The translations under genes were made by a program, and so were the position numbers. A stretch of 35,779 nucleotides of DNA from contig CACXVS010000028.1 in NCBI GenBank assembly GCA_902771155.1, positions 1-35,779 on the forward strand. Reading direction: 5' to 3'. Position 1 is the stretch's first letter. Each line of letters begins with the position of its first letter. Source of the DNA: an uncultured Prevotellaceae bacterium. GTDB lineage: Bacteria > Bacteroidota > Bacteroidia > Bacteroidales > Bacteroidaceae. The notes under the pieces are model-generated. The model was not told the DNA's origin and made no database searches. It saw only the letters and a list, made by a program, of their open reading frames with translations. This document shows, piece by piece, positions 4,830 through 31,406 of the stretch.

Positions 4830-6401
4830 ATGACTAGTGAAGTAATCATTGATGTTCAGCCGAAAGACATCTCGATAGCACTGCTCGAAGACAAAGAACT
4901 GGTGGAATACCAGAAGGAGCAGCGCACCGTGTCGTTCTCGGTAGGAAACATCTACGTGGCAAAGGTGAAAAAACTGATGCCAGGACTCAACGCATGCTTC
5001 GTTGACGTAGGCGCTGAGCGTGTCGCCTTCCTGCATTATCTTGACCTGGGGGGGCAATTCCACTCTTACGAGAAATACCTGAAACAGGTGGTTAGCGACC
5101 GTAAGAAACTCTTCCCCATACAAAAGGCCACCATACAGCCTACACTGCAGAAGGAAGGCAGTATAGCCAACGCACTGAAGGTGGGACAAGAGATACTGGT
5201 GCAGATCGTGAAGGAACCCATCAACACCAAGGGGCCACGACTGACTTGCGAGCTGAGCTTCGCCGGGCGCTATCTGGTTCTCATTCCATTCGACGACTCG
5301 ATCTCTGTCTCCACGAAGATTAAACGAGGAGAAGAGCGAAGCAGACTAAAACAGCTGATACAGAGCATTAAACCGAAGAACTTCGGAGTCATTGTGCGCA
5401 CGGTGGCAGAAGGCAAACGCGCCGCAGAACTCGACGCCGAACTCAAGATACTGCTGAAACGCTGGGAAGACACCATCACGAAAGTACAGAAGACAACAGA
5501 GCGCCCACAACTGTGCTTTGAGGAGGAAAGCAGGGCCGTGGCACTACTTCGTGACTTGTTCAACCCCACATACGACGGCATTCACGTGAACGACAGCAGC
5601 ATCTTCGAGGAAATCAAGAACTACCTGGGCATCATCGCCCCAGAGAAGAAAGACATCGTGAAAATGTATAATGGCACGGTTCCTATCTTTGACAACTTCG
5701 GTGTTACCAAACAGCTGAAATCGGGATTCGGAAAGACCGTCAACTACAAGCACGGAGCCTACCTCATCATTGAGCAGACAGAGGCCATGCACGTGGTGGA
5801 CGTGAACAGCGGTACACGCATCAAGAAAGAAAACAACCAGGAGGCCAACGCCCTGGAGACTAATCTGGGTGCTGCCGACGAACTGGCACGCCAGTTGAGA
5901 CTGCGAGACATGGGGGGTATCATCATCGTTGACTTCATCGATATGAAACTGCCCGAGGACCGGCAGATGCTCTATGAGCGCATGTGCAAGAACATGCAGA
6001 AGGACCGTGCCAGACATAATATCCTGCCGCTCTCGAAATTCGGACTCATGCAGATTACACGTCAGCGCGTGCGCCCTGCCATGAGTGTGAACGTGGAAGA
6101 GACATGTCCTACGTGTTTTGGAAAAGGAACCATCAAATCGAGTATCCTCTTTACGGATACACTGGAGAGTAAGATTGATACCCTCGTCAACAAAATCGGA
6201 ATACGAAAGTTCTACTTGCATGTACATCCCTACGTGGCTGCCTACATCAACAAGGGCGTCATCAGCCTGAAAGCTAAATGGCAGATGAAGTACGGACTGG
6301 GTGTGCATGTGATCCCCTCGCAGAAGTTAGCCTTCCTACAGTATGAATTCTACGATGCCGACAGGCAGTTCATCGACATGAAGGAAGAAACTGACAATTA
6401 A
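4830..6401 (+). CDS. rng: Ribonuclease E/G family endoribonuclease (RNase G)
   Basis: The 523-aa protein has RNase G size and lacks a long RNase E scaffold tail. An S1 RNA-binding domain lies near the N-terminus (FSVGNIYVAKVKKLMPGLNACFVDVG, about 36-130). The DNase I-like catalytic core shows HVVDVNSG (metal Asp D324) and IIIVDFIDM (D368, D371). CPTC (426-429) is the Zn-link motif used for dimerisation. RNase G trims the 16S rRNA 5' end and initiates mRNA decay in the cytoplasm. A GT2 glycosyltransferase gene follows 9 bp downstream, indicating co-transcription. The structured leader may allow feedback control, as known for RNase E in enterobacteria, but this is inference. Confidence 0.93.
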   Translation: MTSEVIIDVQPKDISIALLEDKELVEYQKEQRTVSFSVGNIYVAKVKKLMPGLNACFVDVGAERVAFLHYLDLGGQFHSYEKYLKQVVSDRKKLFPIQKATIQPTLQKEGSIANALKVGQEILVQIVKEPINTKGPRLTCELSFAGRYLVLIPFDDSISVSTKIKRGEERSRLKQLIQSIKPKNFGVIVRTVAEGKRAAELDAELKILLKRWEDTITKVQKTTERPQLCFEEESRAVALLRDLFNPTYDGIHVNDSSIFEEIKNYLGIIAPEKKDIVKMYNGTVPIFDNFGVTKQLKSGFGKTVNYKHGAYLIIEQTEAMHVVDVNSGTRIKKENNQEANALETNLGAADELARQLRLRDMGGIIIVDFIDMKLPEDRQMLYERMCKNMQKDRARHNILPLSKFGLMQITRQRVRPAMSVNVEETCPTCFGKGTIKSSILFTDTLESKIDTLVNKIGIRKFYLHVHPYVAAYINKGVISLKAKWQMKYGLGVHVIPSQKLAFLQYEFYDADRQFIDMKEETDN

Positions 6402-7675: not shown

Positions 7676-7728
7676 CCACGATTAAACCTTTGTGATAACT
7701 CTATAACGGGAAAAGTAGTAACTCAATA

Positions 7729-8985
7729 ATGGAAAAAGAGGAGAAAGAGATTCTATTGCAGAAGTTTGCTGACGCAAATCGAAGACTGGCGCTGGTTAGC
7801 GAGCAGTTAGATATTGCGAACAAGAAACTGAAGGAATACGAAGAAAAGGCTGAGAAGGCTGAGAACGCCAGCAAGATGAAGTCGCTCTTCCTTGCCAATA
7901 TGAGTCATGAAATACGCACACCCCTGAACGCCATCGAAGGATTCTCGAGAGTGATGGTGGAGACCGACTCGCAGGAAGAGCGCATGAGGTACTACGAGAT
8001 TATCGAGACCAATAACAACCGGTTGCTGAATCTGGTGAATGAGATTCTGGATCTGTCGAGGGTGGAATCAGGAGAGATTGTCATGAAGAAGACCCAGACC
8101 GATCTGAACGATTTGTGCGGTGGCATAAGGAACCTGTTTAAGTTCCGCTGTCCTGATTCCGTGAAACTGGAGTGGCACAAGCCGTTGATGCCTGTGATCT
8201 TCATCACAGATCCGAACCGACTGGTACAGGTATTCACGAACTTAATCAGTAACGCACTCAAGCATACACCCAAGGGCAGCATTACCTATGGATATGAGCT
8301 GACAGACGAATGCCACGAGATAAAATTCTACGTCAAAGACACTGGTTCGGGTATCGCCCCAGAGGATTTTGATAAGATATTTGAACCTTACGTCTCAAGA
8401 GACGCAGAGAGCAACAAGAACGGTTACGGTCTGGGACTGCCACTCTGTAAGATTATCGTTGAGAAAATGGGGGGACATATCACTGTTGACTCCGTACTAG
8501 GCGAAGGTTCTACCTTTACATTCGTCTTGCCATTCGAAGGTACCGTCGGAGGCATGAACAATACAAACACCACGACTACATCGAATGTGCGCACCATCCG
8601 CATCAGCGGACATGCCAACGAGAACGATACGAAGAAGATTCTTGTGGCTGAAGACGAGGACAGCAACTACGAACTGGTGAAGATCGTGCTGCAGAAACGC
8701 TACAGGTTGCTGCGTGCCCATAATGGTATCGAGGCTGTGACTATCAACGAGGACGAAAAGCCCGACTTGATCCTGATGGATATCCGTATGCCTGAGATGA
8801 ATGGTCTGGATGCCACGCGAATCATTAAGGAGGTCAACTCGAGTACGCCAGTGATAGCACTCAGTGCCTACGCCTTTGAGGAAAACATCCGAGAAGCCAA
8901 GGAAGCCGGCTGCGACGAGTTTATGGCAAAACCGTTTAAGGTGGAGAACCTCATCGAGACTGTCAAGAAGTATTTGGACGAATAA
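7729..8985 (+). CDS. Soluble hybrid histidine kinase / response regulator
   Basis: The 418-aa protein has no TM segment. An N-terminal coiled coil rich in Glu/Lys/Ala (about 1-48) leads into HisKA (LANMSHEIRTPLNAIEGFS, phospho-acceptor H60). The HATPase_c domain has an N box NLISNALKH (N171/N175), DTGSGIAP and a GYGLGLPL lid. After a Thr/Asn-rich linker (about 277-290) a C-terminal receiver domain carries the acidic EDED pocket (308-311) and phospho-acceptor D351 (LILMDIRMP). No output DNA-binding domain or sensor domain is visible, so the phosphate probably moves to another protein or the receiver tunes the kinase. The EEP-family gene 24 bp downstream is likely co-transcribed. Confidence 0.9.
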   Translation: MEKEEKEILLQKFADANRRLALVSEQLDIANKKLKEYEEKAEKAENASKMKSLFLANMSHEIRTPLNAIEGFSRVMVETDSQEERMRYYEIIETNNNRLLNLVNEILDLSRVESGEIVMKKTQTDLNDLCGGIRNLFKFRCPDSVKLEWHKPLMPVIFITDPNRLVQVFTNLISNALKHTPKGSITYGYELTDECHEIKFYVKDTGSGIAPEDFDKIFEPYVSRDAESNKNGYGLGLPLCKIIVEKMGGHITVDSVLGEGSTFTFVLPFEGTVGGMNNTNTTTTSNVRTIRISGHANENDTKKILVAEDEDSNYELVKIVLQKRYRLLRAHNGIEAVTINEDEKPDLILMDIRMPEMNGLDATRIIKEVNSSTPVIALSAYAFEENIREAKEAGCDEFMAKPFKVENLIETVKKYLDE

Positions 8986-13089: not shown

Positions 13090-13167
13090 CTTTGAATTTT
13101 CAATTTTAACGATTTACAATTATCAATTTAATGTTTTAAAATTCCTCCTTTTTCTTATTTCAGTGTG

Positions 13168-13284: not shown

Positions 13285-13893
13285 ATGAAGCTCATTGTAA
13301 TGACCAAACCCACCTTCTTCGTTGAAGAAGACAAGATACTGGCCAACCTCTTCGAGGAGGGATTGGAAAACCTTCATTTATATAAGCCTGGTGCCTCGCC
13401 CATGTACTCAGAGCGCCTGCTAACTTTACTGGGTGAGGATTATCACAGCAAGATTACGGTTCATGGACATTTCTACCTGAAGGAAGAATATCGCCTGAAA
13501 GGTATCCATATCGACGATGCGTTCACAGAACCTCCTGTGGGATATAAAGGCAGTGTTACTCGCACTTGTCATGCCATCGAAGAACTGAAAGAGGCCAAGC
13601 ATCATTCCAATTATGTCTTCCTCCACTCCATCTTCGACAGTCAGACAAATACCGACGAGAAACAGTCGTTCACGAGGGAAGAGCTGCAGAGAGCCTCAAA
13701 GCAGGGATTGATCGACAAGAAGGTATATGCACTGGGCGGCATGAACATCGACACTATCAAGGCCATCAAGGATCTTGGTTTTGGAGGTGTTGTCATCTGC
13801 GGCGACCTGTGGAATCGTTTCAACATCCACCACGAAATTGACTACAAAGAGTTGCTCAGTCATTTTGAGAAACTTAGAAAGACTATTGATTAA
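13285..13893 (+). CDS. Thiamine phosphate synthase / TenI-family TIM-barrel protein
   Basis: The 202-aa protein has the ThiE/TenI barrel pattern: LHLYKPGAS near residue 31 (first strands), VHGHFYL, GIHI, SVTRTCHAIEEL (S-x-H-type phosphate/thiazole region), VYALGGMN and a glycine-rich GFGGVVICGDLW phosphate loop near the C-terminus. ThiE joins the pyrimidine and thiazole phosphates of thiamine, while TenI relatives aromatise thiazole or have unknown roles. The usual GxGPxxxTxTK loop of bona fide ThiE is not evident, so a divergent paralogue is likely. prs, 21 bp downstream, makes PRPP and is probably co-transcribed. Confidence 0.7.
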   Translation: MKLIVMTKPTFFVEEDKILANLFEEGLENLHLYKPGASPMYSERLLTLLGEDYHSKITVHGHFYLKEEYRLKGIHIDDAFTEPPVGYKGSVTRTCHAIEELKEAKHHSNYVFLHSIFDSQTNTDEKQSFTREELQRASKQGLIDKKVYALGGMNIDTIKAIKDLGFGGVVICGDLWNRFNIHHEIDYKELLSHFEKLRKTID

Positions 13894-15413: not shown

Positions 15414-17990
15414 TTAGTTCAATGCGGGAAGTTCCAACCACTTAATGTAGCAGAAATCCTGACGGTGAGGCAGGTTCTTGTTCTTCGGGAACATACGCAC
15501 TGCACTCTTGTACTGTCCGAACTGCTTAGGCTTCAGATCTGCCTCAAAAGTAAAGTTGTTACCTTCACGACCAGTTACCTTCAGAGGTTCTACACTGAAC
15601 ACCTTCTCCTCGCCATTTTTGTCAAGCAAAACATTAACCTTCTCCAAACCGACAGCATCATCGAGACCCTGCTCGTTGATTACATACTTCAACTTGTAGG
15701 TCTGACCAGCCTCTGCACCGGTAGCGGGGAAGTCCCACTCGGCTGATACCACATTGATGGCATCCCAGCGCTCTACTACAGCTTCCTTCCACTGGGCAAT
15801 CTCCTTAGCCAGACGGTTGTCGTTCTTAGAGAGTTCCTTGAAGCGCTTAGCTTCCTTCTCATAAAACTTAGTATAATAGTCATCAAGCTGACGCTTCATG
15901 GTGTAGTGAGGAGCAATCTGAGCAATCGAGTTCTTGACCACCTCGATCCAGCCCTTTGAGATGCCCTTCTTGTCCTTATCGTAGTACAGAGGAATAATCT
16001 CGTTCTCGAGCAGGCTATAGATGGTAGCAGCATCGAGCTGATCCTGATAGCCCTGGTTCTCGTAGGTACGCTTTTCGGTCAATGCCCATCCGGCACCCTC
16101 ACGATAGCCCTCCAACCACCAGCCGTCTTTAACGGAGAGGTTCACCACACCGTTCATCTCAGCTTTCTCACCAGATGTACCAGAAGCCTCGAGCGGACGT
16201 GTAGGTGTGTTCATCCAAATATCAACACCCGATACCAGACGACGGGCTAACAGGAAGTCGTAGTCCTCGAGGAAGATAACCTTGCCGAGGAACTCAGGAC
16301 GCTGGCTGATCTCGTAAATCTTCTTAATCAGTCCCTGACCAGCACCGTCAGCGGGGTGAGCCTTACCGGCAAACAGGAAGATAACGGGATGCTCGGGATC
16401 GTTCACAATCTTACTCAGACGCTCCAGATCGGTAAAGAGCAGATGAGCGCGCTTGTAGGTAGCAAAGCGGCGGCAGAAGCCGATAACCAGTGCATTGGTG
16501 TTGAACTGCTCCAGCAACTTCACCACACGTGAGGGATCGCCCTGGTTCTTCAGCCATGTCTCGCGGAACTGTTCCTTAATATACTCGAAGAGCTTAGCCT
16601 TCAGCGCCTGGCGTGTAGCCCAGATCTCCTCATCGGGACAGTTGTAGATGCCATACCAGATATCCTCGTTCGACTGGTCGCTCATGTGCTTCTCGTCGAA
16701 GTACTTGGCATAGACACGACGCCACTCGGTAGCACACCAGGTGGGGAAGTGGACACCATTCGTCACATAACCCACGTGACTCTCCTCGGGGTAATAGCCG
16801 TTCCAGATGGGTGCAAACATCTTCTTTGACACCTCACCATGGAGCCAAGATACGCCGTTGACCTCCTGACAGGTGTTGCAGGCGAAGGTCGACATACAGA
16901 ACTTCTCGCCCTTATCCTCGGGATTGGTACGACCCATGCCGATGAATTCGTCCCAAGAAATACCGAGCTTCTGAGGATATGCGCCCATATACTTACCAAA
17001 CAGGCCCTCTTCGAAGTAGTCGTGACCAGCAGGTACTGGTGTATGAACGGTATACAGACCTGAAGCACGAACAAGCTCAAGAGCCTGGTTGAATGTCAGA
17101 CCGTCTTCCTCAATATAGTCGCACAAACGCTGCAGATTGCAGAGTGCTGCGTGACCTTCGTTGCAGTGATAGATATCTTTCTTGATGCCCAACTTCTTCA
17201 GCAGCAGCATACCACCAATACCCAGCAGAATCTCCTGCTTCAGGCGGTTCTCCCAGTCGCCACCATAAAGACTGTGGGTGATGGGCTTGTCAAAGTCTGA
17301 GTTCATTTCGTTGTCAGTATCAAGCAGATACAACTTTACACGACCTACATTAACACGCCATACATAAGCGTGAACCATGTAGTTGGTGTAAGGCACATCG
17401 ACTACCAACGGATTGCCGTCCTTATCAAGCTGACGCTCAATGGGCAGACTTCCGAAATTCTGACTCTCGTAGTTGGCAATCTGCTGACCGTCCATCGACA
17501 GGCTCTGTGTAAAATAGCCAAAACGATACAGGAAACCAACGGCACACATATCAACATTCGAGTCGGAAGCCTCCTTCACGTAATCACCAGCCAACATACC
17601 CAGACCACCAGAATAAATCTTAAGGGCAGAGTGGATACCATACTCCATACAGAAGTAGGCTACTGACGGACGCTTGCTATCAGGCTTCACGTCCATGTAC
17701 TTGCGGAACAGGTCATAGACACTTTTCACGCGCTTCATCAGCGCCTTATCCTTTAAGATTTGCTCCTTGCGCTCAAAACTCAGACGCTCCAGTAACATAA
17801 CAGGATTGTGCTTCACATCATGGTAAAGCTCAGGGTCGAGATCACGGAACAAGTCACGTGCCTCGTAGTTCCATACCCACCACATATTGTGGGCAATCTC
17901 ATCCAAACACTTCAGCTCTTCAGGAAGGCTCGACTTCACAATCAGTTCTCTCCACTGTGGAGCATTTGCGTAATCTGCTTTAATTTTCAT
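15414..17990 (-). CDS. glgP: Alpha-glucan (glycogen) phosphorylase, GT35
   Basis: The 858-aa protein belongs to the bacterial/archaeal phosphorylase branch with an N-terminal DUF3417-like region (about 1-110). [21 protein letters not shown] precedes the core. The PLP region reads [14 protein letters not shown] with K609 as the Schiff-base lysine, then NLSVKDGWW. The C-terminal ~110 residues form a beta domain seen in Bacteroidetes homologues. It releases glucose-1-phosphate from glycogen. The glycogen synthase gene lies 32 bp upstream on the same strand, so synthesis and breakdown enzymes share a transcript. The start ATG at 17990 fits the usual N-terminus. Confidence 0.93.
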
Positions 17991-18022
17991 ACTTAATCAA
18001 ATTATATATTTGAATCCTTATT

Positions 18023-19681
18023 TTACTTTTTTCGTGTTTCAGCTTTCTTGAGGGCAATATCGTATGCCTCGTAATAGTACTTGATAAACTCACTCCAGAG
18101 AGCCTTCTTCGACAGGTTGCCTGCATTCTTTCTACATGCCTCAATCTGTTTCTTCGTCATATTCGAGTAGGCTGCTACTGTGTCTTTGATATTGTCGGCC
18201 ACCTCCGAGTAGTTGTAGTCGGTACGGTGAATCACCTTCACACCGTCCTCCAATTCTCCGAAATGTCCGAATACGGAATTAGCCCAAAGACCAAAGCCAG
18301 CGAGGTCGGTTGTGATGCAGGGTACCTTGAAGGCCACTGCTTCCAGTGGCGTATAACCCCATGGCTCGTAATAGGAAGGATAGATGCAGAGGTCATTGCC
18401 CAACACCACATCGTAGTAGGTCATATTCACAATACCGTCGTTACCATCCAGATAACATGGCAGGAAGATCACCTTCACCTTCTCGTCCTTACGGTTGTGC
18501 ATATCGTAGTACTTCAACATGCCCAGCACATTGTCATGGCTCATATTGTGCAGCCAGTGTGTCACCTGTGGCACATCCAACGGAGTATCATATTTTTTGC
18601 CACTCTTCAGACGTTCCTGCAGATCCTTGCGGGGCTCGCCTACCCATCCGGGCACTTCGATGAAAGCCACCACCTTCTTCTTCAGGTCGCGATCTCTCAG
18701 CAAACGGTTCATTGCCTCTACAAACACGTCGATACCCTTGTTACGGAACTCGTAGCGCCCAGAGGTGGATACCAACAGCGTATCGTCGTCCAGATCCTCA
18801 CCAAGAAGTGCGTTGGCAATATCCAACATCTTCCTGCGGGCTACAGTGCGCTTACGGGCGAACTTCTGTGCGCTCGGCACAAAACTGTCGTCAAAGCCGT
18901 TAGGCAATACCACATCCACAGGTTTGTCGAGCAACTCTACGCATTCCTTGGCAGTAATATCACTCACCGTCGTAAAACAGTCCACAAAGTGGGCCGTCTG
19001 CTTCTCAATCGAGTGCTTCGACTGCATATTCAACTCTCCTGCCATCTGGTCACCGTTGTAGGCAAACAGGTAGTCATAGAGCGGTTTCATGTTTCCTGCT
19101 ATCGAACGACCGATACTTGTGGCATGAGTCGTGAAGATGGTACCAATCTGGGGCAGGTTATTGTTGATGTATAGAGCTCCAAGTCCGCACATCCACTCGT
19201 TAGCGTGGTAGATCACCTTCTGCTTCTCATCCAGATAGTAGTTGTAGAAACTCTCCACCACCAGTGCAGCTGCATACGAGAACATCGATGCCTCATCGTA
19301 GTCGCCGTAAGCATGCAGTGAGTCAACACCGTAGTGTTGCCACAACCAACCATATATCTCATTCTTCTTCTCAAAGAACGGATTAAAATCCACCAGAATT
19401 GCGATAGGCTCTCCAGGCACTGTCCAGCGCCCCACCCTTAACTTAAGACCCTGCTCTTCTGCCACCTCTTGCCAATCAGCAAAAAGTTTCTTGTCCTCTC
19501 TGAAATAAGGACTCTCTTGTTCTTTCCAAAAATCAGGACCGATGAAAACAATCTTATCCTGAAGTGCCTCCTGTAGGGTCTTGGCACGTGTCGAAAGGAC
19601 TGTATAGATTCCCCCTACTTTGTTGCAGACTTCCCAACTTGACTCGAAGATGTAGTCTGGCATTAACTGCTTTTTCGCCAT
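18023..19681 (-). CDS. Glycogen synthase, GT3 (eukaryote-like) family
   Basis: The 552-aa protein starts with FESSWEVCNKVGGIYTVLSTRA, the nucleotide-sugar binding GGIYTV motif of GT3 enzymes. It contains YHANEWMCGLGALY, TTHATSIGR and YYEPWGYTPLEAVAFKVP (conserved E439 and E447 of the retaining GT-B active site). This is the animal/yeast-type synthase found in Bacteroidetes in place of the GlgA GT5 enzyme. It elongates alpha-1,4-glucan in the cytoplasm. It is first in the operon with glgP, behind a TAACTTTG promoter box on the minus strand. Confidence 0.92.
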   Translation of the reverse strand: MAKKQLMPDYIFESSWEVCNKVGGIYTVLSTRAKTLQEALQDKIVFIGPDFWKEQESPYFREDKKLFADWQEVAEEQGLKLRVGRWTVPGEPIAILVDFNPFFEKKNEIYGWLWQHYGVDSLHAYGDYDEASMFSYAAALVVESFYNYYLDEKQKVIYHANEWMCGLGALYINNNLPQIGTIFTTHATSIGRSIAGNMKPLYDYLFAYNGDQMAGELNMQSKHSIEKQTAHFVDCFTTVSDITAKECVELLDKPVDVVLPNGFDDSFVPSAQKFARKRTVARRKMLDIANALLGEDLDDDTLLVSTSGRYEFRNKGIDVFVEAMNRLLRDRDLKKKVVAFIEVPGWVGEPRKDLQERLKSGKKYDTPLDVPQVTHWLHNMSHDNVLGMLKYYDMHNRKDEKVKVIFLPCYLDGNDGIVNMTYYDVVLGNDLCIYPSYYEPWGYTPLEAVAFKVPCITTDLAGFGLWANSVFGHFGELEDGVKVIHRTDYNYSEVADNIKDTVAAYSNMTKKQIEACRKNAGNLSKKALWSEFIKYYYEAYDIALKKAETRKK

Positions 19682-28634: not shown

Positions 28635-31406
28635 ATGGAATTAGCAAGCAAGTACGACCCAAAAGAGGTCGAAGGCAAATGGTATCAGTACTGGCTCGAT
28701 CACAAACTTTTCGCCAGCAAACCCGATGGACGTGAACCCTATACGATCGTTATTCCCCCGCCCAACGTAACCGGTGTGCTCCACATGGGTCACATGTTGA
28801 ACAACACCATCCAGGACATCTTAGTGCGCCGTGCCCGCATGGAAGGCAAGAATGCCTGCTGGGTGCCTGGCACCGACCACGCCTCTATCGCCACAGAGGC
28901 TAAGGTGGTGAAGAAACTGGCAGAACAGGGAATTAAGAAGCACGACCTGACGCGTGAGCAGTTCCTGGAGCACGCCTGGGACTGGACTCACGAGCACGGA
29001 GGCATCATCCTCAAGCAGTTACGCCGTCTGGGTGCCAGCTGCGACTGGGACCGCACCGCCTTCACGATGGACGAGAAGCGTTCAGAGAGTGTCATCAAGG
29101 TGTTCGTCGATCTCTACAACAAAGGTCTCATCTATCGTGGCCTGCGTATGGTGAACTGGGATCCGAAGGCCCTTACTGCCCTCTCTACCGAGGAGGTGAT
29201 TTATAAAGAGGAGCAGAGCCATCTGTTCCATCTGAAATATTATGTGGCAGATCCCGAGAATCTGGTTATTCCCGAGAATCCTGAAGAATCAGGCAACGTC
29301 ATCCATAAGGATGCCAAAGGCTATTACGCCGTAGTAGCCACTACGCGCCCTGAAACCATCATGGGCGATACCGCTATGTGTATCAACCCCAAGGACCCGA
29401 AGAACCAGTGGCTGAAAGGTCGCAAGGTCATCGTTCCTCTGGTGAACCGTGTGATCCCCGTGATTGAAGACCGCTACGTGGATATCGAGTTCGGTACGGG
29501 CTGTCTGAAGGTGACACCAGCTCACGACACCAACGACTATATGCTTGGTAAGACGCACAATCTGGAAACCATCGACATCTTCAACCCCGACGGCACCATC
29601 TCCGAGCAGTCGCCCATCTATGTGGGTATGGACCGCATGGACTGCCGCAAGCAGATTGCCAAGGACCTTCAGGAAGCCGGTCTGATGGAGAAGATTGAAG
29701 ACTATGTGAACAAGGTGGGCTACTCTGAGCGTAACCCCGACACAGCCATCGAGCCGCGCCTCTCACTGCAGTGGTTCCTCAAGATGCAGCACTTTGCCGA
29801 CATCGCCCTGCCTCCTGTATTGAATGGCGAACTGAAGTTCTATCCGCAGAAATACGTGAACACCTATAAGAACTGGCTGGAGAATATCCAGGACTGGTGT
29901 ATCTCTCGCCAGCTTTGGTGGGGCCATCGTATTCCAGCCTACTATATTGAAGCCCCCTCCAACCTCCCCCAAAAGGGTGAGGCTATTCCCGAAAACGCAT
30001 TCGTTGTGGCTGTGACAGAAGAGGAGGCATACAAACTTGCTGTCGAGAAATTCCCACAACTGAAGAACCTTCCCCCCTTGGGTGACACAGGCAGGGGCTT
30101 TACCTTGCGCCAGGAAGAGGATGCCCTCGACACCTGGTTCTCTTCATGGCTCTGGCCTATCTCCCTGTTCGACGGCATCAACAATCCCGGCAACGAGGAA
30201 CTGAATTACTATTACCCCACCAACGACCTGGTGACGGGTCCTGATATCATCTTCTTCTGGGTGTCGCGCATGATTATGGCCGGCTACGAGTTTGTAGGCA
30301 AGATGCCTTTCAAGAACGTATATTTCACGGGTATCGTTCGCGACAAGCTGGGTCGTAAGATGTCAAAATCACTCGGCAACAGCCCCGACCCCATCGAACT
30401 CATCGAGAAGTTTGGTGCCGACGGTGTGCGTATGGGCATGATGCTCTCCGCCCCCGCAGGCAACGATATCCTCTTCGATGAGACCCTCTGCGAGCAGGGA
30501 CGTAACTTCAACAATAAGATATGGAACGCCTTCCGCCTCGTGAAGGGTTGGAGAGTGGCCGATATCGAGCAGTCGGAGGCTGGTAAGATTGCAACCTCGT
30601 GGTTCGAGGCCAAACTGCGCCAGACCAATGCCGAAGTTGACGACCTCTTCAAGAAGTACCGCATCTCAGAGGCCCTGATGGCAGTCTATAAGCTCTTCTG
30701 GGACGAGTTCTCCTCATGGTACCTGGAGATGGTGAAGCCCGCCTATATTAATGGTGAGGCACAGCCCATCGACCAGTTGACCTACGACAAGACCCTCGGA
30801 TTCTTCGAGCAGCTGCTGAAGATGCTCCACCCCTTCATGCCGTTTATCACCGAGGAGCTGTGGCAGCACCTCTACGACCGCAAGGATGGCGAGAGCATCA
30901 TGCGCGACAAGCTCGAGATTGCCGCACCCACCGAAGCCGACGCTAAGCTTGTCGATCAGATCGAGAACGTGAAGCAGATCGTGTCGGGTGTCCGTACTGT
31001 ACGCTCTTCCAAGAACATTGCCCCGAAGGAGCAGGTTGAGCTGCAGGTGATCGACCAGAACGACTTCGCCGATTTCTATCCAGTGATCATCAAGATGGCT
31101 AACCTCAGCTTTATCAACATTGTGGTTGAGAAAGATCCAACAGCCTCTGCCTTCATGGTAGGCACCTACGAGTTTGCAGTGCCCCTCGGCAATATGATCG
31201 ACGTAGAGGCCGAGATCGCCAAGATGGAGGCACAGCTCCAGCACCTTGAGGGATTCCTTGCCGGTGTCAAGAAGAAGCTCTCCAACGAGCGTTTTGTGCA
31301 GAATGCCCCCGAGGCCGTTGTCGCCCTGGAGCGCAAAAAGCAGAGCGACTCTGAAGAGAAGATTGCCTCACTGAAAGAATCCATTGCAGCTTTGAGAAAT
31401 CAATAA
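28635..31406 (+). CDS. valS: Valyl-tRNA synthetase with two small in-frame inserts
   Basis: The 923-aa class I synthetase has the HIGH-equivalent HMGH (50-53), a CP1 editing domain ([24 protein letters not shown]), the KMSKS motif (575-579), the anticodon-binding helical domain and a C-terminal coiled coil (about 850-920). It charges tRNA-Val and edits Thr. Two stretches not expected in the family, residues 439-452 and 478-489, flank the conserved [15 protein letters not shown] segment between the editing domain and the second half of the catalytic core. They are encoded by related GC-rich palindromic sequences. carB follows 19 bp downstream. Confidence 0.95.
29949..29990 (+). repeat. GC-rich palindromic insert, copy 1, within valS
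   Basis: Positions 29963-29970 (CCTCCCCC) and 29975-29982 (GGGTGAGG) form an 8-bp stem with one mismatch and an AAAA loop. It translates in frame as residues 439-452, with a NLPQKGE core. The motif at 29961-29980 is 15 of 20 identical to the second copy. Confidence 0.7.
30066..30101 (+). repeat. GC-rich palindromic insert, copy 2, within valS
   Basis: Positions 30066-30085 align with 29961-29980 at 15 of 20 bases and in the same reading frame, giving NLPPLGD. Its right end GGGGCTT is the reverse complement of AAGCCCC at the left end of copy 1, so the pair also has inverted outer ends. It encodes residues 478-489. Confidence 0.7.

Follow-up and report, generated by a model that had tools for sequence, protein, structure and literature searches.

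What are two short, GC-rich, palindrome-like sequences doing in frame within valS, the gene of an essential enzyme, in an uncultured Prevotellaceae bacterium? A preliminary description of the 35.8-kb stretch of DNA analysed here (35,779 nt; the window) took them for two protein-coding palindromic elements inserted in an otherwise conserved valyl-tRNA synthetase (ValS), and that reading is right in kind. We put at roughly three in four the probability of a fuller one: the two sites are mirror-image halves (each an outer arm and a hairpin, together an inverted dimer) of a palindromic repeat dispersed in rumen Prevotella and related Bacteroidales, which is non-autonomous, mobile or amplified, and tolerated when it stands in frame in loops, and the ValS segment has apparently been exchanged between lineages. 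The repeat would spread through these genomes, we infer by transposition or copying, and where it landed in frame in a loop it would be translated as a Pro/Gly-rich coil and tolerated, which would account for its persistence in ValS and other enzymes; the segment with its copies would then be an allele passed among lineages. A large population of such repeats in rumen Prevotella and relatives, in frame in enzymes such as ValS, LpxB and CTP synthase, would make the transition from repeat to protein sequence observable, as the same loops are filled, half-filled or empty across relatives.

The valS gene is intact and the enzyme with its elements presumably still works (Table 1). ValS residues 1-440 and 490-918 align with the Thermus thermophilus enzyme (1gax), and the variable segment between them stays unaligned. 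As had been expected, the protein is longer than its closest relatives outside its near-identical group, with 63 residues from WWGHR to DALDTW against 41 in L083 and P0101. The AlphaFold model is poor (mean pLDDT 54, too low to place loops); at that low confidence it has a strand (456-458) and two helices (462-472 and 474-478) between the sites and suggests that both sites are coil (440-455 and 479-489).

Table 1. Features of valS and its variable segment in window coordinates
Feature	Position	Strand	Details and basis
valS, valine--tRNA ligase, 923 aa	28635..31406	+	ORF; NCBIfam equivalogs NF004349 and TIGR00422 over cut-off
Variable segment ('Y' allele), residues 439-489	29949..30101	+	Comparison with other ValS loci
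Left half-element	29950..29984	+	Outer arm from 29950 (AAGCCCCCTCCAA), hairpin, then CT; encodes 11 residues
Left hairpin, CCTCCCCC-AAAA-GGGTGAGG	29963..29982	+	In full CCTCCCCCAAAAGGGTGAGG; 8-bp stem with one mismatch
Enclosed ValS strand and helix, 22 residues	30000..30065	+	Homologous to, and distinct from, the empty-allele counterpart
Right half-element	30064..30100	-	Inverted, degenerate; read as 11 residues in ValS; 26/39 with left half
Right outer arm, GGGGCTT	30094-30100		
Right hairpin remnant, TCCCCCC-TTG-GGTGA	30071..30085	+	

The two GC-rich half-elements stand either side of one ValS helix. They had been described as direct repeats with 15 of 20 bases in common, one reading frame (NLPQKGE and NLPPLGD) and inverted outer ends (AAGCCCC and GGGGCTT), all of which the sequence confirms, but an inverted pair fits better: the left element and the reverse complement of the right one agree at 26 of 39 aligned bases in an alignment that begins at those outer ends, a score that none of 300 shuffles reaches. 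Palindromes had been claimed within or next to both copies. The left one is recognisable as a hairpin with one mismatch, but the right one is a degraded remnant, and the palindromic nature of the elements is established by comparison with relatives, the window by itself being insufficient. At the right site of the G203 ValS (L081), for instance, stands a perfect hairpin, CCTCCCCCAGTCGGGGGAGG. The first ValS 20-mer, searched with up to three mismatches, matched only itself in the 35.8-kb window (0 expected), which holds no further copy. Both window copies are old, with the right one in decay. An RNA function through a known family was also considered and set aside, as no Rfam match was found in window 29850-30200 or in six other loci and the folding energies of the two hairpins were unremarkable against shuffled sequences (z -1.27, left; +1.10, right).

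Whether relatives carry the same insert was examined in three samples: the best 80 of 592 stretches from a scan of genome contigs, the best 120 of 7999 from a protein search, and the 398 genomes of the genus of G001, where a DNA match was found in 369 and the best 30 were taken as loci. We call the window-type segment 'Y', and the shorter, empty-type segment that replaces it in other ValS 'n'. Among the 77 readable loci of the contig scan, 64 have 41-47 residues between the two motifs, and these empty sites include Bacteroides and Paraprevotella, so that the extra residues are not common to all Bacteroidales ValS; the other 13 are longer, and four (L001, L049, L059 and L061) have the Y type. 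The Y segment is present in 100 of the 120 proteins of the second sample, which were picked for likeness, and a 69-residue segment query matched 25 of the 398 genomes at E <= 0.001 (15 at E <= 3e-10). It is identical in P0002-P0006, P0009 and P0011 and differs by one residue in P0007 and P0008 (P0001 being the window protein). Beyond this near-identical group, the closest ValS bodies among those listed, L083 (93.5% aa identity) and P0101 (93.3%), are without both elements. Intermediate states exist as well. One or both hairpins are absent in frame in P0029 and P0074, the left hairpin occurs twice in P0086, and L016 has an otherwise empty-type segment with a different half-element, in opposite orientation, at the first site. 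The ValS of G095 is empty, and that of G039 is lengthened differently, by an insert that is not GC-rich. At 8505-8600 of L061, another inverted hairpin pair lies in frame near the ValS C-terminus, where L059 has a short remnant-like stretch.

Related repeats elsewhere, which the preliminary description had proposed to look for, were found in close relatives' genomes, in frame in coding genes. The copy numbers given here come from those genomes, the window species being represented by its 35.8 kb. A comparison of the 33-nt left element (29952-29984) with contigs from six genomes, partly chosen for known hits and totalling 1.52 Mb, gave 11 matches of at least 25/33, two of them the G203 ValS copies, against none in the reversed control. 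The best match beyond ValS lies in lpxB of another species (G226), at 31/33, in the same frame and with the same 11-residue peptide; among these comparisons it is the strongest single evidence that the ValS insert probably belongs to a dispersed family. The right ValS hairpin of G203 is likewise identical (20/20) to a hairpin in that genome's GH43 gene. The exact hairpin CCCCTCC..GGAGGGG has 26-65 copies per genome in six relatives with GC-rich ValS inserts and none in G095 or G039, and the reversed control gave none in all eight. With a looser hairpin pattern applied to 77 genomes, the median count is 93 in the 17 with a Y allele and 22 in the 60 others (one-sided Mann-Whitney p 0.0027). At least 34 such hairpins occur in 16 of the 17 Y genomes (34-144 each) and in 25 of the 60 others; the link between allele and hairpin count is loose, because many non-Y genomes are hairpin-rich and G002, a Y genome, has a count of just 4. 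On contig C50 of G214 (L183), nearly identical hairpins whose loops read CTACAG or CTGTAG are clustered at 7700-7880 and 16200-18370, some in short ORF calls and the rest outside ORF calls.

In a complete copy, a spacer separates an outer arm and 20-nt hairpin from their inverted counterparts, hairpin first and outer arm last. Inverted dimers with short spacers occur at L115, which measures 77 nt from GCCCCC to GGGGGC, and at L121, and the spacers span 16-105 nt in 19 hairpin pairs (gap <150 nt). In 11 of 18 Y alleles the ValS halves can still be recognised as inverted copies of each other; in the other 7 they cannot. The idea that a left half fits its own right half better than those of other genomes is unsupported: own pairs score higher on average, and the ranges overlap. 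L043 has two composite palindromic elements that resemble each other in their inner sequence and lie 2.6 kb apart, at 5430-5540 and 7985-8100, one within valS, further downstream than the variable segment, and the other before valS. Conservation was assessed on few sequences, the DNA of four species with the NLPQxGE type (the window, L081, L082 and L099). Of the 29 positions in the left arm and stem, a single one differs among the four species, against 27 of 72 in the enclosed helix (Fisher p 4e-4); at third codon positions the contrast is 1/9 for arm and stem against 17/24 for the helix. The loop differs at 3 of its 4 positions. All four read GGGT, a synonymous change from the palindromic GGGG, which argues for one old, retained insertion, not four new ones.

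In-frame copies also stand in unrelated genes. Fourteen proteins were chosen from hairpin loci of the relatives and named by Pfam, and in each the hairpin lies inside the open frame: GH43, LpxB, CTP synthase, an Era-like GTPase with a KH domain, an FGGY kinase, RsmF, CydB, thiamine pyrophosphokinase, MetG, UvrA, GH97, an EPSP-synthase family enzyme, a tRNA nucleotidyltransferase and a class-I tRNA synthetase, which we take to be of the Ile type. Simple ORF calls contain 14/14 hairpins in G226, 12/12 in G203, 8/10 in G001, 13/18 in G007, 16/27 in G214 and 15/37 in G003. As ORFs cover 0.91-0.97 of the DNA, a place inside an ORF is expected by chance, and the figures indicate no avoidance of genes in G226, G203 and G001, and not a preference for them; in G003 only the 15 of 37 lie inside. 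A search that required the outer arm found 107 half-elements, 64 of them in ORFs, against 12 in reversed contigs; the decayed ValS copies of the window fail it. Reading phase is uniform for PLLLEG/PLSLEG in G226 (4/4) and for LTPxPSPKGEG in G001 (4/4), groups that were defined after looking, and three of the four copies of the GCCCCCTCCAACCTCCCCC type share one phase, the fourth having another. The idea that the elements might be specially free of stop codons in all six frames found no support: 7/7 fell inside the shuffled range.

Within single loops, the presence of the halves differs among relatives. Among the best 120 of 8000 LpxB relatives, one loop carries either the pair NLPQKGEA...PLSLEGDGGR or the pair SPHPSPKGEG...PLFLEGDRGR, and the same loop in others listed has the right half alone, the left half alone, another insert or none. 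Among the best 120 of 892 GH43 relatives (protein sequences only), the loop holds other GC-rich pairs or tandem peptides of other make-up, or is nearly empty. Other repeat-like peptides were seen in loops of the GH43 homologs P0242, P0246, P0264 and P0249 and the LpxB homologs P0155, P0207 and P0209 (NLKSQTS, KNSKIEKL and SHLSPLTSHL, with QLKLIVQSSKFKV at a different LpxB site); judged from the peptides, these look like further coding-repeat families.

The ValS segment itself tells a less expected story. The claim that two insertions interrupt otherwise conserved sequence holds as far as the elements are present and empty relatives exist, but the enclosed segment is itself replaced and the two sites are halves of one architecture, so that the segment is better regarded as an allele than as two insertions into an unchanged enzyme. 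Against L083, the window is identical at 31/35 and 31/34 positions in the nearest flanks and at 13/25 across 30031-30056; its enclosed helix is homologous to, and distinct from, YVVAETREEALKMAQQKDPKVT of L083, and ten Y alleles agree with the window there at 17-22 of 25-26 positions. A FastTree phylogeny of 208 ValS bodies without the segment (105 Y, 103 other) implies 32 allele changes. With branches below 0.95 support collapsed, at least 20 are needed, against at least 60 in 200 label shuffles. On 58 hand-picked rows (IQ-TREE, quick), 15 changes are required, at least 9 of them forced by supported branches, and a single Y clade is rejected (p-AU 9.9e-6, on the same hand-picked rows). Moreover, L049 and L059, whose bodies are 75.6% and 76.9% identical to the window, have its inner helix type. 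Exchange of a short ValS segment between lineages is likely, because hairpin loss alone could not regenerate the other helix. Among n alleles, too, the helix is of at least two types, QQKDPKVTDADL and ARKESGNANLQLSDL, and these also look mixed among relatives. This exchange is the least expected part of the analysis and raises the question whether short gene segments are exchanged more readily when hairpins form their ends.

One answer would be that the hairpin-bounded segment of ~150 nt is a cassette that species exchange, its ends formed by the inverted hairpins. The alternation of Y and empty alleles on the body tree (15 changes over 58 rows, 32 over 208), the switch in divergence close to the element borders, the window-type inner helix in the distant bodies of L049 and L059, and the composite element present twice in L043, 2.6 kb apart, would all suit it. 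The same pattern is expected, however, from plain homologous recombination of short tracts; the immediate flanks are no more alike among Y alleles, one or both hairpins are gone in several of them, and the inner tract, at only ~70 nt, is too short for a secure tree. We consider such a cassette unlikely, although it is the rival we take most seriously, and are slightly more doubtful of its fullest form, in which the whole segment, hairpins included, would travel between genera in one piece and take the place of the resident one in frame. A family of palindromic elements would then be reshuffling parts of essential proteins across species.

The remaining alternatives dispense with a mobile repeat or give it a role. 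Hypervariable, low-complexity, GC-rich loops could arise by replication slippage, their likeness being convergence on Pro/Gly coil, and repeat-like peptides in the GH43 and LpxB loops (NLKSQTSNLKSQTS, KNSKIEKLKNSK and LSQQPIANSQQ), together with the element deletions and one tandem duplication in ValS (P0029, P0074 and P0086), are of the kind that slippage would leave. It is nevertheless improbable in view of the 31/33 DNA identity between the window ValS and another species' lpxB, with no reversed-control match at 25/33, of the inverted dimers with outer arms, and of exact hairpins at 26-65 per genome in six genomes against none in the control. A little less credible again is a functional reason for keeping the hairpins in ValS, as mRNA or DNA structure or as a helpful peptide loop. 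The low variability of the left arm and stem relative to the enclosed helix (1/29 against 27/72 in four species, Fisher p 4e-4), with a loop that differs at 3/4, speaks for it, but this comes from only four DNA sequences, several of which, including the window, have a lost or decayed right half, 64 of the 77 readable loci (best 80 of 592) have just 41-47 residues, and the window hairpins have ordinary RNA stability and no Rfam match in the stretches searched. An artefact of assembly, or chance, is refuted by independent records: the identical segment in P0002-P0006, P0009 and P0011, the one-residue variants in P0007 and P0008, and the homologous elements in other species. A dispersed palindromic repeat tolerated in loops remains our preferred reading.

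Coding palindromic elements have been reported mainly from Rickettsia and, as intragenic REPs, from some other genomes, as far as the parts of the literature consulted go. The Rickettsia palindromic elements (RPEs), to which the ValS sites had been likened, are described there as palindromic in-frame insertions of several families in unrelated genes (PMC10969869; mentioned in PMC3733652). The likeness lies in short palindromic repeats that are read in frame as part of unrelated proteins (across the relatives; in one gene in the window). Counts per genome are high in the relatives. The elements described here differ in their hosts, Prevotella and relatives, in being GC-rich, in size (~77 nt for the L115 dimer against ~150 bp for RPEs), and in their inverted dimers with outer arms and the exchange of a ValS allele. 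The comparison stands as an analogy, and family membership is not supported: no RPE model is among the NCBIfam matches (E up to 1) of ValS, LpxB and GH43, a search of protein models only in a library that presumably includes RPE models.

Intragenic GTAG/CGTC REPs are a second point of comparison. The relevant sections of the source describe palindromes of 20-40 nt, often inverted dimers encoding 20-30 residues, which occur in tRNA synthetases and uvrA, and two Xanthomonas recB genes with different REPs at about one site (PMC3733652). Short palindromes, inverted dimers and copies in tRNA synthetases and uvrA are features in common, whereas the present elements show no enrichment of the tetramer (within 10 nt of 12 of 101 perfect 7-bp hairpins against a 21% background) and, in G226 and G203, no avoidance of genes. 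REPINs are two inverted palindromes with a short spacer that go with RAYT transposases, and the inverted palindrome pair in the window ValS, in 11 of 18 Y alleles and in other genes resembles them. A RAYT/Y1 transposase as the general mover is unsupported: the Y1 family PF01797 gave no match in five hairpin-rich genomes (G203, G214, G391, G232 and G003, drafts in which absence is uncertain), passed the cut-off in the hairpin-bearing G226, G001 and G059, and matched in four hairpin-poor genomes (G095, G039, G097 and G356), a distribution that leaves no consistent tie. The outer arms and inverted halves also recall the terminal inverted repeats of MITEs. Inverted repeats translated within essential genes are described from nematomorph mitochondrial genomes (PMC6649704), and this is the feature in common; there the arms encode conserved protein sequence, and the passages concerned make no mention of a dispersed repeat family (PMC6649704). 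A search of mostly open-access papers found no coding palindromes in Prevotella or Bacteroidetes among the titles and abstracts listed; the repeat family of Prevotella and relatives described here is GC-rich, untagged and built of inverted dimers. Apart from these elements, the window has a 22-nt, A/T-rich tandem repeat of 2.2 copies at 13095-13143, 5' of an ORF at 13285.
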